Of a DNA stretch of 64,000 bases, positions 29,129 to 51,367 are shown piece by piece (the first letter of the stretch is position 1; each line of letters starts with the position of its first letter). The position numbers and the translations under genes are program-made. The notes below the pieces were generated by a model. It saw nothing but the letters and a program-made list of their open reading frames with translations, was not told the origin of the DNA and did not search any database. This DNA is from Chloroflexota bacterium. GTDB lineage: Bacteria > Chloroflexota > Anaerolineae > Anaerolineales > Villigracilaceae. The stretch lies in contig JACRBN010000010.1 of the NCBI GenBank assembly GCA_016213105.1, positions 62,001 to 126,000 of the forward strand, written 5' to 3'.

Positions 29129-29292
29129 TATTAATAAGACATTAACGGTATAAGTAGTTATATTAGCATGTGGAAGCAATGATCCAAGGAAGTAGATTGG
29201 TCGCTGAACTTTTCCCCATCTTCGATTGGAAAAGGGATTTCCTTGTGGAGCTAACAGCGAAACCGGCCACAGCCCGGTTTCGCTGTTTGTTT
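29129..29292 (+). ncRNA. Candidate small RNA or attenuator leader ending in an intrinsic terminator
   Basis: Between the promoter at 29095-29122 and the gene at 29330 lies a perfect 14-bp hairpin: AACAGCGAAACCGG (29253-29266) with CCGGTTTCGCTGTT (29274-29287), followed by TGTTTAT. Transcripts would end here at about 160 nt unless read-through occurs into the downstream operon. A frame starting at ATG 29170 crosses this hairpin and is not protein-like, so the stretch is best read as RNA. No Rfam family recognised by eye. The rest of 28996-29094 is AT-rich with no gene. Confidence 0.5.
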
Positions 29293-40293: not shown

Positions 40294-41337
40294 TTATATC
40301 CTGACCAGTTTCTGCCCGTCCCGCCCATCCTGCACCTGCCAGCCCAGCGCGGCGATTTGGTCACGCAGCACGTCGGATGCGGTGAAGTCCTTTGCGGCGC
40401 GGGCGGCGGCGCGGCGGGCGAGGAGCTCAAGCACCGCCTCGGGCGGACCCGCCCCTTCGAGCGGAGGCGCATCCGTAACCATTTGCCAGGCTTGCGGGGA
40501 AATGCCTGCGCTCAATTCCGACGGCATACGGAAATCGCCGATCCCGACCAGTGGAATTTTCGCGCCCGACGGGAAGATTTCTGGATTGCATACGCGCACC
40601 AGGGACACCGTGCTCACGCCGCTCACTTCGCAGGTGTCGGTCTCGAAGTCGAAGATGACACCCGTGTGTTCGTCCAGGCCAAGCGTGACGTGCCCGGGCG
40701 GCAGGAGGTCACACCACTTCGCGAAGCGCTCCATGCCAACGAAACAGCGGCTGGTATCAAGATCCAGGCCGCCGTCAGCGTTGTTCCAGTGCGGGATGAA
40801 GGACAGATGCACACCGTAATCGGCGAACAGGTCCAGGCCGGGCTTGGTATGCACATCCTCACCGACCTTGTAGATCTCGTACACGGGCAGCGCATGGGCG
40901 CCCACGGCAATCGTCGCAGCGGAGGCAAACACGAGGGTGGCGCCGAGTCGATGCCGCGCGCGCAGGATGTCCCAGGCGAGCGTCCCCTGCAACTGGCGGG
41001 CGGCATAGGTCGGGCTGCCAGGTCCCATGAAGAGGATGTCCGCGTACAGCATGGGGGTCAGGATGTCGGGGTTATCGGGGCTGAATTCCGTGCCAAGTTT
41101 TCGGGCGGGAATCACGTTCACGATGGGAGCGTAATTTTGCAGGCGGGTCTTGAGGAAATCCGCCACGCGCCCGGCCACCTGGGCCGAGTTCAACTCGAAA
41201 CCTGCCGTGGTTTCGAGGATGGCGATCCGCAGAGGGCGGGAGTGATTGCGGGCGACCGCCTCGAAGATGCGCCCACCCGCCAGCGAAGTCTCGCCCGAAC
41301 CAAGGAATGCAATACGACCTAAAGTATGATGTGTCAT
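40294..41337 (-). CDS. Peptidase S51-like domain fused to a CysRS-type C-terminal helical segment
   Basis: 347 residues. The first 285 residues look like an S51/cyanophycinase-type class I glutamine-amidotransferase fold: IAFLGSGETSLAGG, MGPGSPTYAARQL, a nucleophile-elbow-like FASAATIAVG (Ser-Ala-Ala rather than the usual Ser-Ala-Gly) and HWNNADGGLDLD with candidate His and Asp. The last 55 residues (ARAAKDFTASDVLRDQIAAL and GWQVQDGRDGQKL) closely resemble the C-terminal anticodon-side tail of cysteinyl-tRNA synthetase, which has no known place in peptidases. Activity uncertain. Last gene of the minus-strand run with the selenoprotein redoxin, 66 bases after it. Confidence 0.72.
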   Translation of the reverse strand: MTHHTLGRIAFLGSGETSLAGGRIFEAVARNHSRPLRIAILETTAGFELNSAQVAGRVADFLKTRLQNYAPIVNVIPARKLGTEFSPDNPDILTPMLYADILFMGPGSPTYAARQLQGTLAWDILRARHRLGATLVFASAATIAVGAHALPVYEIYKVGEDVHTKPGLDLFADYGVHLSFIPHWNNADGGLDLDTSRCFVGMERFAKWCDLLPPGHVTLGLDEHTGVIFDFETDTCEVSGVSTVSLVRVCNPEIFPSGAKIPLVGIGDFRMPSELSAGISPQAWQMVTDAPPLEGAGPPEAVLELLARRAAARAAKDFTASDVLRDQIAALGWQVQDGRDGQKLVRI

Positions 41338-41403: not shown

Positions 41404-41886
41404 TCACGATTCGAGGTTCAATTCATCGATGACCGCGAGGAGCTTTTCATTCGGGGGAATATCGGCCATCGACGTGCCGTAATGCGCGTACCGGATGCGG
41501 CCGTTTTTATCCACCACGCATACCAGCGGCATGCGCCCCAGTTTGAAGATGTTGACTTCCTGCCGATACCTGCGCGCCACCGTGTGGTCTGGATCAGGCA
41601 GGCCAGCGTAGGGGATGTTTTCATTGCCCCAATAACGGATGAATTGTTCGGGTTTGTCGGGACCGACAGACAGAATCTCCGCACCGCGTTCAGTGAAGGC
41701 GGGATAATCGTCGCGCATGCGCGCCAACTGCGCGCGGCAGTACGGTCACATGAAGCCGCGCAGGAAAGCCAGCACAATCGGCTTGGAGCCGTGGAAACTC
41801 GAAAGGCGCACGGGCTGGCCGCGCGTATCGAGCAGTTCGAAATCGGGAGCAAGCTCCCCGGGGGTAATCAGCATGGTTGGGTTCAT
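41404..41886 (-). CDS. Redoxin/peroxiredoxin-like selenoprotein with in-frame UGA (Sec47)
   Basis: 160 codons read through one UGA at 41748-41746. The frame on both sides encodes one AhpC/TSA-like thioredoxin fold: GELAPDFELLDTRGQPVRLS, then PIVLAFLRGFM-U-PYCRAQLARM, then RGAEILSVGPDKPEQF and RMPLVCVVDKNGRIRYAHYG. The UGA falls exactly where this family has the first active-site Cys, giving U47-x-x-C50. The ATG at 41886 overlaps the stop of the upstream hydrolase (ATGA), so the part before the UGA is clearly translated. A SECIS-like hairpin follows the UGA and selB lies at 49454-51367. If the UGA were a real stop, only a 46-residue fragment would be made. Likely a Sec-dependent thiol peroxidase or disulfide reductase in the cytoplasm. 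Confidence 0.88.
41719..41735 (-). promoter_or_regulatory. Bacterial SECIS-like hairpin after the Sec UGA
   Basis: On the mRNA: GCGCGC, loop AGUUG, GCGCGC. The loop begins 17 nt after the UGA and has G as its second base, in keeping with the bacterial SECIS model as I recall it (apical loop 16-37 nt from UGA, a G in the first two loop positions). The self-complementary GCGCGC arms mean other foldings are possible. Confidence 0.6.
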
Positions 41887-42854
41887 CTGTATTGATTCTT
41901 ATAGAAGGCGATCAGTGCATCCATGAAAAGATTTGGGCACTCCTCCTGTGGCAGGTGGCCGCATTGCGCCAGAACGACCAGTTCGGCGGAGGGAATTTCC
42001 TCCGCCAGGCGCAGGCTTTGCTCGGTGGGAACGATGCGGTCGTCGTCCCCGGTCAGCACGAGCACGGGTACGGCCAGCCCCGCCAGACGATCCTCCAGGG
42101 CCGAGGCATGACTAGCAGCCGTCAACTCCCACAAGGCGCGGTCCCAGTTTTCCACCTGCAACGGCTTCTCATAGCCGGCAAACACCTCGGCTGGGATGCG
42201 TGTGGGATCGTGCCAGGCGGTCTCGATAAAGGCGCGTCCCTGGGCCTGGAGTTGACGCGCAATCAACGGGCCGACGTGGCGCATTTGGGGCGTGTCCAGC
42301 AGGGGACGGATCCACGCGGGCGAGCCGCCTCCCGCGTAAATGGCCGCGTCCACCAGGACGAGGGCCTGCACCCGTTGTGGATAGCTCAGCGCCACTTGGA
42401 CGGAAATCGTCCCGCCCGCCGAGTTGCCCACCAGGATCGCGCGTTCCACGCCGAGCGCATCCATCAGGCCAATGACCAGTTTAGTTTGCGCTTCGGGGCT
42501 GTAGGGACTCTCCCCGCTCCACTCGCCAGGCATGGGACGCTCGGTCAGGCCAAAGGCGGGGCGGTCATAAGCGATGACGCGCCCATATTGGGAAAGCGGC
42601 TTCATGACTTCGCGCCACGAGAAGGTGCTGGCGCCAAATCCATGCAGGAGGATGAAGGTGGGGCTGCCCTGTCCCATTTCCTTGTAGTGGACGGTCAGGC
42701 CGTTGACCTCCACGAATTTGCTGTCGGGGTCGGTCAGTTCTGCGACTGTCTTCAGGCCTTCCAGCGGCGGGACGGGTATCAAAAACGGGCCTACCCCCAG
42801 GACAAGGAGCAGGACGAGAAAGATGATGAGGAGATTCTTTTGCCAACGTTTCAT
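41883..42854 (-). CDS. Membrane-anchored alpha/beta hydrolase
   Basis: 323 residues. One N-terminal membrane helix (LLIIFLVLLLVLGVGPFLI), then an alpha/beta-hydrolase fold: oxyanion HGFGASTFSW, nucleophile Ser in VGNSAGG near residue 145, Asp in LTGDDDRIVP and His in CGHLPQEE. Substrate unknown; similar proteins are esterases or C-C hydrolases. Its stop overlaps the start of the redoxin, so the two are co-translated. A double-hairpin repeat lies upstream of its start. Confidence 0.87.
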   Translation of the reverse strand: MKRWQKNLLIIFLVLLLVLGVGPFLIPVPPLEGLKTVAELTDPDSKFVEVNGLTVHYKEMGQGSPTFILLHGFGASTFSWREVMKPLSQYGRVIAYDRPAFGLTERPMPGEWSGESPYSPEAQTKLVIGLMDALGVERAILVGNSAGGTISVQVALSYPQRVQALVLVDAAIYAGGGSPAWIRPLLDTPQMRHVGPLIARQLQAQGRAFIETAWHDPTRIPAEVFAGYEKPLQVENWDRALWELTAASHASALEDRLAGLAVPVLVLTGDDDRIVPTEQSLRLAEEIPSAELVVLAQCGHLPQEECPNLFMDALIAFYKNQYR

Positions 42855-49453: not shown

Positions 49454-51367
49454 CTACCCCTTTCTCAACTTCCTAAAATCGCCAGCACGCATGGTCACAC
49501 CGATGACGTCCAGATGTTCGAGCAGGGCCTGGGCATATTTGCGGCTGGTGTTGAACAGGTCGCGGACTTCGGCCAGGGAGATCTGTCCGTTTTGCGCGAG
49601 CGTCGCCTTGATCTTCGCCGTCATCGCGTCATACTCCTCCCTGCGGAAGATGACCTCCTGCGAGACGGCCATCAACTGGCCCAAGTCGAGCAGCGCGTTG
49701 AGGAGTTCCTCACCCGTCTCGGCCTGACATTCCTTGACGGAGGGCGGCGCGTACGGATTGGCTTCGAATTTCCGCAGCAAGGTGCCGACTTTGACTTTTT
49801 GTCCCTCATCGAATCGAACCTCGTGCGCAGGCAGGGCGATCAAATTTTCGATTTTTGATTTGCGATTTTCGATTAATAGATTTCGTTGAGTGAAGACCGC
49901 AAGAACCGCATTGAAAACGCGCGGCTGGAGTTTGAGTTTGGACTTCAATTCCTCGCGGGGGATGCCGCGGCGCAAGGGAAAATTCTGATGATGGGCTGCA
50001 ACGAGCTGCAGGGTCTTGTCGCGCAGGACGTTCCAGTGCGGCAGGGCCAGGGCGAGCAAATCAGACGTGATGGATGGCGCGCCCTCATCAAGCAGGATTA
50101 GCTTGCGGCTCTCCAGCAATTCGGTCAGCGCCTCACTGGCGGGGGCAGGCTCCAAGCGCGAACGGGCGACCATCGCCTTCAGCGAGTCGGCCTGGAGCGC
50201 CAGCGCGGCTTCGAACAAAACATCCGCGGGCGAGCCCTGCGAGAGGGACTCGAGCGACTTGAGCACATCTCCGTCCATGCGCTTGTGGCGGCCTTTGGGC
50301 TGGTGGTCGACGATCACGCCGCCGCCCAGGGTTTCGCCAGGCGAGGGACGGCGTAGGATGTAACGGTCGCCGCGCACGGCCACCACCGGATCGCGCAGTT
50401 CGAACTGGATCCAGCCTTCGTCACCGGGCAGGAGTTCCTCCGTACCGAGCAGGCGCAGCATGGCCAGCGTCTCACTGGCGCCGACAAAGAACTTAACCTC
50501 GCTGCCATGTTTGAGCGCGGACGAGGCATCCTTCAACAGGCGGAAGCGCGCGTCGAGTCGCCGCGTGGCCTGGTACTGATCCGGGCGGACAACCACCTCG
50601 CCGCGCCGCACGTCTTCCGCGGGGATGCCCGAGATGTTGATCGCCGTGCGCGAACCTGGCACCGCCTGATCCTCTTTTTTACCGTGGGTTTGCAGACCGC
50701 GCACACGCCCCGTGAGTCTGCCCGGCAGGATTTGCACTTCATCGCCGAGGGACAGGCTCCCATCGCTGAGCGTGCCCGTGACGACCGTGCCGAATCCGCT
50801 CATGGTGAAGACGCGGTCAATGGGCAGGCGCGGGCGGCCCAGGTCGAGGCGGGCGGGTTTGGTTTCGAGCAATTGGGTCAGGGTGCGGAGCAGGCCATCG
50901 AGGCCGAGTCCTGTTTTGGCGGAGACACGCACAAGCGGCGCGGCCTGCATGACGGTCCCCTGCACGGCGGCGCGGATATCCACTTCGAGCAGGTCGAGCC
51001 AGTCGGGGTCGGAGGCCAGGTCCGTTTTGGTCAGGACGATCATCCCCGCGGGGATCTGGAGCAAATCCAGAATGGCAAGGTGCTCCTTCGTCTGCGGCAT
51101 GACGCCTTCATCGGCGGCGATGACCAGTAGGGCGGCGTCGATCCCGCCCACGCCCGCCAGCATGTTCCCGATAAAGTCACGATGGCCCGGCACATCCACG
51201 ATGCCGATCTCCTCGCCGTTCGGGAGGGTCAGCCAGCCGAAGCCAAGCTCAATGGTCATCTCACGGGCCTGCTCCTCCTTAAGGCGGTCGGGGTGGGTGC
51301 CCGTGAGCGCGGCAATCAGGGTGGATTTGCCGTGGTCCACGTGGCCTGCGGTGCCAATCACACGCAT
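49454..51367 (-). CDS. selB: SelB, selenocysteine-specific elongation factor
   Basis: 637 residues. Carries Sec-tRNA to the ribosome and binds the SECIS hairpin. GTPase domain: Walker A GHVDHGKST, DVPGHRDF, TKTDL, plus the SelB-type start MRVIGTAGHVDHGKSTLI. EF-Tu-like domains II-III (PIDRVFTMSGFGTVVTGTLS, RGEVVVRPDQY) follow, then four winged-helix units in the last 270 residues that bind SECIS. In the linker near residues 496-508 the AT-rich repeat-like string NRKSKIENLI is inserted. GGAGGA before the ATG. selA, selD and selC were not seen in the window. Confidence 0.95.
   Translation of the reverse strand: MRVIGTAGHVDHGKSTLIAALTGTHPDRLKEEQAREMTIELGFGWLTLPNGEEIGIVDVPGHRDFIGNMLAGVGGIDAALLVIAADEGVMPQTKEHLAILDLLQIPAGMIVLTKTDLASDPDWLDLLEVDIRAAVQGTVMQAAPLVRVSAKTGLGLDGLLRTLTQLLETKPARLDLGRPRLPIDRVFTMSGFGTVVTGTLSDGSLSLGDEVQILPGRLTGRVRGLQTHGKKEDQAVPGSRTAINISGIPAEDVRRGEVVVRPDQYQATRRLDARFRLLKDASSALKHGSEVKFFVGASETLAMLRLLGTEELLPGDEGWIQFELRDPVVAVRGDRYILRRPSPGETLGGGVIVDHQPKGRHKRMDGDVLKSLESLSQGSPADVLFEAALALQADSLKAMVARSRLEPAPASEALTELLESRKLILLDEGAPSITSDLLALALPHWNVLRDKTLQLVAAHHQNFPLRRGIPREELKSKLKLQPRVFNAVLAVFTQRNLLIENRKSKIENLIALPAHEVRFDEGQKVKVGTLLRKFEANPYAPPSVKECQAETGEELLNALLDLGQLMAVSQEVIFRREEYDAMTAKIKATLAQNGQISLAEVRDLFNTSRKYAQALLEHLDVIGVTMRAGDFRKLRKG
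49843..49880. repeat. AT-rich repeat-like stretch inside selB
   Basis: Alternating AATCGAAAATC, GCAAATC, AAAAATCG units (minus strand) in an otherwise GC-rich gene. It codes in frame for ENRKSKIEN. A short relative (tttgcgatttgcgatt) lies in the plsC upstream region near 20641. Confidence 0.6.

Follow-up and report, generated by a model that had tools for sequence, protein, structure and literature searches.

The window analyzed here, a 64,000-nt stretch of a Chloroflexota genome, carries on its minus strand a redoxin gene that is interrupted by an in-frame TGA (Table 1). Read with TGA as selenocysteine (Sec, U), positions 41886-41404 translate into 160 residues, MNPTMLITPG...RGFM-U47-PYC50...NLES, and the TGA at 41748-41746 is the sole interruption of this frame, which closes with a TGA of its own at 41406-41404. 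An earlier note, made from the letters of the window, had placed the UGA at this position within an otherwise continuous redoxin frame, and our translation agrees with it; the ATGA overlap with the upstream hydrolase gene that it described (41886-41883) is likewise real. Its expectation that gene calling would report a truncated product after the UGA was borne out except for the start, which it put at codon 56: the mechanically called ORF of 107 aa begins at TTG codon 54 (41727), and the first ATG is codon 57. Profile search matched the read-through protein to PF00578 (AhpC/TSA) at 92.9 bits against a cut-off of 26, which answers the search of redoxin families suggested in the same note, and the active site carries a UxxC motif, U47-P-Y-C50. 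The nearest relative, L019, also starts with MNPT, and dN/dS between the two genes is 0.124 over codons 1-46 and 0.074 over codons 48-160. The gene is a single intact frame, and by these substitution rates purifying selection acts on the codons before the UGA as well as on those after it.

Table 1. Features of the redoxin locus and of the associated decoding gene, in window coordinates.
Feature	Position	Strand	Evidence or detail
UxxC AhpC/TSA-fold redoxin gene, 160 codons, UGA47 predicted as Sec	41404..41886	-	translation, PF00578, dN/dS
In-frame UGA, codon 47 (predicted Sec), first UxxC position	41746..41748	-	TGA kept in 135/140 loci
bSECIS-like hairpin GCGCGC-AGUUG-GCGCGC	41719..41735	-	loop 41725-41729
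Alpha/beta hydrolase, upstream, ATGA overlap 41886-41883	41883..42854	-	Abhydrolase_1, 104.4 bits
Peptidase E/cyanophycinase-like fold with C-terminal CysS_C domain, downstream	40294..41337	-	CysS_C, 29.7 bits
selB, selenocysteine-specific elongation factor	49454..51367	-	TIGR00475, 327.2 bits (cut-off 242.25)

The two neighbors differ in how they accompany the redoxin among the related loci described below, many of which have short flanks: a hydrolase homologue lies near the redoxin in 12/24 clade A and 18/107 clade B loci, and the downstream neighbor stands beside it in 24/24 clade A and 3/107 clade B loci. The structural model of the downstream protein reached a pLDDT of 84.0, and its best fold match was 6nqc (TM by target length, 0.79). 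Elsewhere in the window, a c-di-GMP-II-GAG riboswitch was matched at 29163-29277 on the plus strand with 40.1 bits, for a cut-off of 40.

The source genome (5.39 Mb in 28 contigs, 97.55% complete), whose nearest named relatives are Chloroflexota/Anaerolineales genomes, encodes the machinery for Sec decoding. The selB gene that the earlier note had recognized in the window was confirmed by profile search, and the remaining components that it proposed looking for were all found in the genome: selA (527 bits), selD (350.6 bits), and tRNA-Sec (selC; 70.4 bits, anticodon TCA). The selD gene (L017, C2:28955-29887) has an in-frame TGA of its own (CAG-U-ASK), with candidate hairpins 32-33 nt and 17 nt downstream of it. 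The same genome holds a second UGA-containing UxxC redoxin (L002, C1:41210-41653), 45% identical to the window protein. Across the genomes of the class, selA scored over the cut-off in 111 of the 120 genomes with a UGA gene vs 204 of the 276 without one (Fisher p = 1.1e-5, kinship between genomes being ignored); one genome (G099) was kept out of the UGA group, its TGA lying at a codon other than 47. Nine UGA-gene genomes, G184 and G335 among them, have no selA over the cut-off. Of the three of these that were examined further, G108 shows selB together with a strong tRNA-Sec match, G180 shows selB, and G128 has neither selB nor tRNA-Sec over the cut-off.

The UGA recurs at the same codon in related genes. 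Matches at E <= 1e-15 were obtained in 206 of 396 genomes of the class Anaerolineae, and the 140 loci that we compared are mainly the best scoring of these matches plus nine named loci; they include the window's own gene and one locus twice (L020 = L028). Codon 47 was TGA in 135 of the 140, TGC in three, and ACC in one, the remaining locus being a fragment that lacks the site, so that the Sec or Cys residue that the earlier note had sought at this position in homologues is what nearly all of them encode. Since TGA stands at the same codon in 135/140 loci, its presence goes beyond chance. The ACC locus, a PrxQ, is a distant match, as are two of the TGC loci (E 2e-21 to 8e-24 for the three), leaving a single close Cys form (L057, 48% identical), with TGC, in genome G289. 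In that genome, the assembly of which is rated 99% complete, selB is present and selA is split by unknown bases; a search for tRNA-Sec did not find it there, the two best matches being tRNA-Ser. We considered whether G289 had lost Sec decoding and dropped the idea, given the presence of selB and a selA interrupted by unknown bases; the Cys form is thus not tied to the loss of Sec decoding. B-type UGA redoxins were also seen in three Deltaproteobacteria records (L025-L027), and two of these (L025 and L026) fall among Chloroflexota sequences in the second of the trees described below, which suggests horizontal transfer.

Downstream of the UGA, the window gene can form a hairpin whose loop starts after 16 nt and whose segment encodes Arg-Ala-Gln-Leu-Ala-Arg. 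The rules for a bacterial SECIS (bSECIS) set out in section 5 of PMC13188914 call for a loop of 3-9 nt, an upper stem of 4-16 bp, a distance of 16-37 nt from the UGA, a G in the first two loop positions, and an energy of -7.5 kcal/mol or lower. With its AGUUG loop, its 16-nt distance, and -16.6 kcal/mol over 49 nt, the window hairpin satisfies these published rules, the check that the earlier note had recommended. It resembles the consensus in its 5-nt loop, with G at position 2 followed by U, and in its stem of at least 6 bp, but it lies at the lower limit of the published range, whereas close relatives have theirs at 25 nt. Applied automatically, the bSECIS rule was passed by 81 of 95 loci and failed by 14. 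The folding energy of the window hairpin gave no signal against dinucleotide shuffles (z -0.14, 0.11, and 0.87), the best structure of an 81-nt fold that included upstream sequence differed from the hairpin, and Rfam at gathering scores returned nothing within the redoxin gene. Because shuffled energies carried no signal, protein-preserving controls were used instead.

These controls covered 133 of the 134 distinct UGA loci, leaving out the copied locus (L028) and one (L154) whose flank ends at the contig end. The loci were divided by peptide into clade A (24 loci), which brings together the family of the window gene and the named loci L019-L024 and has Ala-Gln-Leu or Ala-Ser-Leu at residues 52-54 in nearly all members, and clade B (107 loci), which is defined by Gln-Leu at 56-57; the remaining two (L085 and L088) could be assigned to neither register by peptide and are counted with neither clade. 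Codon choice within the hairpin is nearly invariant. The loop leucine is encoded by TTG in 21/24 clade A and 107/107 clade B genes, a codon used for 17.5% and 19.3% of the other leucines there, and glutamine by CAG in 21/21 and 107/107. GCG is similarly near-fixed for alanine (A52, 23/23, and A55, 24/24, in clade A; A55, 101/103, in clade B). The Pro48 and Gln59 codons of clade B, unlike those in the hairpin, are not near-fixed. When codons were drawn at random from the synonymous usage of each clade's genes, 1.4 clade A and 5.5 clade B genes were expected to carry the hairpin in the register of their clade; 23/24 and 77/107 do so. The automatic bSECIS rule, applied at 45 nt, rejected 28 of the 107 clade B genes. 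When entire genes were scanned for a GUU presented by a stem of 5 bp or more, it stood at offset 17 in 23/24 genes of clade A and at offset 26 in 105/107 of clade B, every other offset of such a GUU hairpin occurring in four genes at most.

Pairing in the stem adds to this picture for clade B, in which 99.4% of the cells pair and four of six pairs change on both sides (9 cells; 0/500 shuffles). Some of these stem changes also alter the encoded residue: L077 has Cys for Arg58, and L128 combines Val for Ala55 with His for Arg58. In clade A, all cells pair and no pair has changed on both sides, and covariation therefore says nothing there. The Cys homologue L057 has no such hairpin and keeps Gln-Leu-Arg as CAA CTT CGG. 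Taken from these codon and pairing patterns, the RNA hairpin is under selection.

The two clades differ in where the hairpin sits. Clade B has the same GUU-loop hairpin 25 nt after the UGA vs 16 nt in clade A, which puts the two loops exactly 9 nt apart and the encoded Ala-Gln-Leu three residues apart, as seen in U-PYC-RAQLARMRDD (clade A) vs U-PFC-RRHMAQLRQD (clade B). Both registers occur in the window's genome, in the 16-nt window gene and the 25-nt second redoxin (L002), from which we infer that a single SelB would act at two registers or more. The second of our two trees, with 115 proteins, recovered clade A as a single clade with 100/100 support nested in B-type sequences, and several of the latter diverged before it (98/90 and 96/96). 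The first tree omitted L100, L153, L155, and L156 as short and placed an outgroup with a very long branch (L004) within clade A. For the second, 67 hand-picked B-type rows were used, the outgroups were PrxQ, distant Cys proteins, and additional UxxC groups, and L004, other long rows, and L057 were left out. The bootstraps of both trees are unsettled, with correlations of 0.988 and 0.910 where 0.99 was wanted. Since clade A lies inside B-type sequences, the 25-nt register is most likely the older one, and there is a good probability that in clade A the hairpin moved from an ancestral 25 nt to 16 nt, carrying the encoded Ala-Gln-Leu along with it. Such a relocation would most likely have kept the frame, the stem, and the GUU loop while rewriting part of the active-site helix.

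A further 45 loci from the phylum (40 TGA, 3 TGC, and 2 AGC) were mostly picked for their reported TGA, and no frequency can therefore be taken from them. In this selected set, B-like genes elsewhere in the phylum have the hairpin at 25 nt in 20/23 cases, and a divergent VREF-U-MQC group has it at 25 nt in 6/6, with a different stem. UxxC redoxins of other Chloroflexota with YRAFW-U or YRGFF-U (L213-L215, L223-L225, L228, L229, and L231) show a candidate hairpin at 20-21 nt in 7/9, a further register.

The change of register might instead be structural, with the hairpin not moving alone: two indels of 9 nt each, with sequence deleted before the hairpin and inserted after it, would have shifted the whole peptide. 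Read by eye, the two segments can indeed be written as CR---AQLARMRDDY vs CRRHMAQLR---QDY. The MAFFT alignment, however, is ungapped, and none of the loci examined showed just one of the two indels, so we consider this route tenable yet somewhat the less probable. The hairpin register has changed whether by substitutions or by an indel pair, both routes being possible. Returning to the relocation itself, we think it probable that a bacterial SECIS can relocate within its own coding sequence, here by exactly three codons in one Anaerolineae family, with the RNA signal, and not the function of the enzyme, dictating the conversion of RRHMAQLRQD to RAQLARMRDD.

Peroxiredoxins use a Pro and a Thr (PxxxTxxC) together with an Arg as catalytic residues that activate the peroxidatic Cys. 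The AlphaFold2 model, made with 35 proteins, had a mean pLDDT of 93.2 and placed residue 47 directly before a helix spanning residues 48-59. Its nearest solved folds were the AhpE and BCP peroxiredoxins (5id2_D; Z 24.1, 152 residues, rmsd 1.7), with ResA ranking below them. The earlier note was right in naming a redoxin, and its "thioredoxin fold" needs refining, since the protein is nearer to AhpE/BCP than to the thioredoxin-like ResA. The UGA does fall at the active-site UxxC, as it stated; it is, however, Cys50 rather than U47 that aligns with the peroxidatic Cys of PrxQ (L115), in 35/35 proteins, and U47 replaces the catalytic Thr. In 34/35 proteins, the exception being PrxQ itself, the peroxiredoxin Pro, Thr, and Arg correspond to Arg43, residue 47 (Sec or Cys), and Pro120, the equivalence of Pro120 to the PrxQ Arg coming from the column alignment only. 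Pro120 would presumably match the cis-Pro of thioredoxin-type proteins. The window protein thus shares the fold and the Cys50 position with AhpE and BCP/PrxQ and differs from them in the absence of PxxxTxxC and the catalytic Arg and in having a predicted Sec in place of Thr; by these residues, it is not a canonical peroxiredoxin.

We propose that SelB, with Sec-tRNA(Sec), would read the hairpin presenting GUU 16 nt after the UGA and that Sec would be inserted as residue 47. Sec47 would then be the likely nucleophile and Cys50 its resolving partner, and the protein would most likely carry out cytoplasmic selenol/thiol-disulfide exchange, being itself reduced by a thioredoxin-like system. Sec insertion at residue 47 is, on the comparative evidence, almost certain; the redox chemistry and the partners of the protein are put forward with a good deal more reserve, as somewhat the better-favored reading. 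A selenoprotein acting mainly as a peroxidase, in which Sec47 would reduce the peroxide and Cys50 would then resolve the selenenic acid so formed, would suit the AhpE/BCP-like fold and the alignment of Cys50 with the peroxidatic Cys, but the residues that activate that Cys are replaced by Arg43, Sec47, and Pro120 in 34/35 proteins, which makes this function rather unlikely. It is the replacement of Pro, Thr, and Arg that favors disulfide exchange through Sec47 and Cys50 over peroxidase activity.

The identity of the inserted residue rests on sequence, and UGA47 might accordingly be decoded as another amino acid through a code change or suppression. This is very improbable: the redoxin gene and the overlapping hydrolase gene both end in TGA, selA, selB, selC, and selD are in the genome, the close homologue has Cys at codon 47, and a selected hairpin lies downstream of the UGA. 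A genuine stop at UGA47, a pseudogene lesion, or a sequencing error, with a separate or dead ORF downstream, would agree with the two pieces seen by gene callers under table 11 but is scarcely credible in view of the same TGA in 135/140 loci, the purifying selection on both of its sides, and the selected hairpin. We therefore regard the window gene as very likely a real selenoprotein gene of a known class, the UxxC Prx-like proteins.

SelL proteins carry a UxxU motif. The best NCBIfam match of the window protein was to SelL (NF040769), at 66.3 bits and below the 120-bit cut-off, and its motif is UxxC rather than UxxU. No NCBIfam model exceeded its cut-off for this protein, and routine annotation may well cut the gene at the UGA as a result. 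UxxC Prx-like selenoproteins are already described in passages of PMC13188914, PMC1088965, PMC1794560, and PMC2398784, the first of which names WP_010940744.1 as the reference sequence of the class. With these Prx-like thiol:disulfide oxidoreductase selenoproteins (the "Prx-like protein" of the Sargasso Sea and "Prx-like 1" of GOS), the window protein shares PF00578 and a UxxC in place of TxxC/TxxU; the class, as presented in those passages, also holds UxxU. By its PF00578 domain and UxxC motif, it belongs to the UxxC Prx-like class and is a predicted oxidoreductase. The GOS survey, in the part dealing with Prx-like 1, counted 225 Sec and 2,740 Cys sequences (PMC2398784), so that Cys forms outnumber Sec forms there, whereas close Cys forms are rare here among loci chosen by score. 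A count of selenoproteins in PMC1794560 gives three for Chloroflexi. The corresponding passages of the published Prx-like selenoprotein accounts make no mention of a difference in SECIS register, the titles and abstract openings of the open-access papers listed by our searches pointed neither to redoxin selenoproteins of Anaerolineae nor to a moved bacterial SECIS, and the main text of PMC12013277 did not contain the terms looked for.

In this family, an RNA signal within the coding sequence appears to have shifted register as a unit, with the protein sequence following it. More than 100 natural sequences stand at one of two fixed registers, and both the distance limits of the SECIS and the way in which a SECIS shapes its host protein thereby become directly testable. 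If this reading is true, one genome decodes UGA with hairpins at 16 and 25 nt, and the spacing tolerance of SelB could be tested through natural variants.
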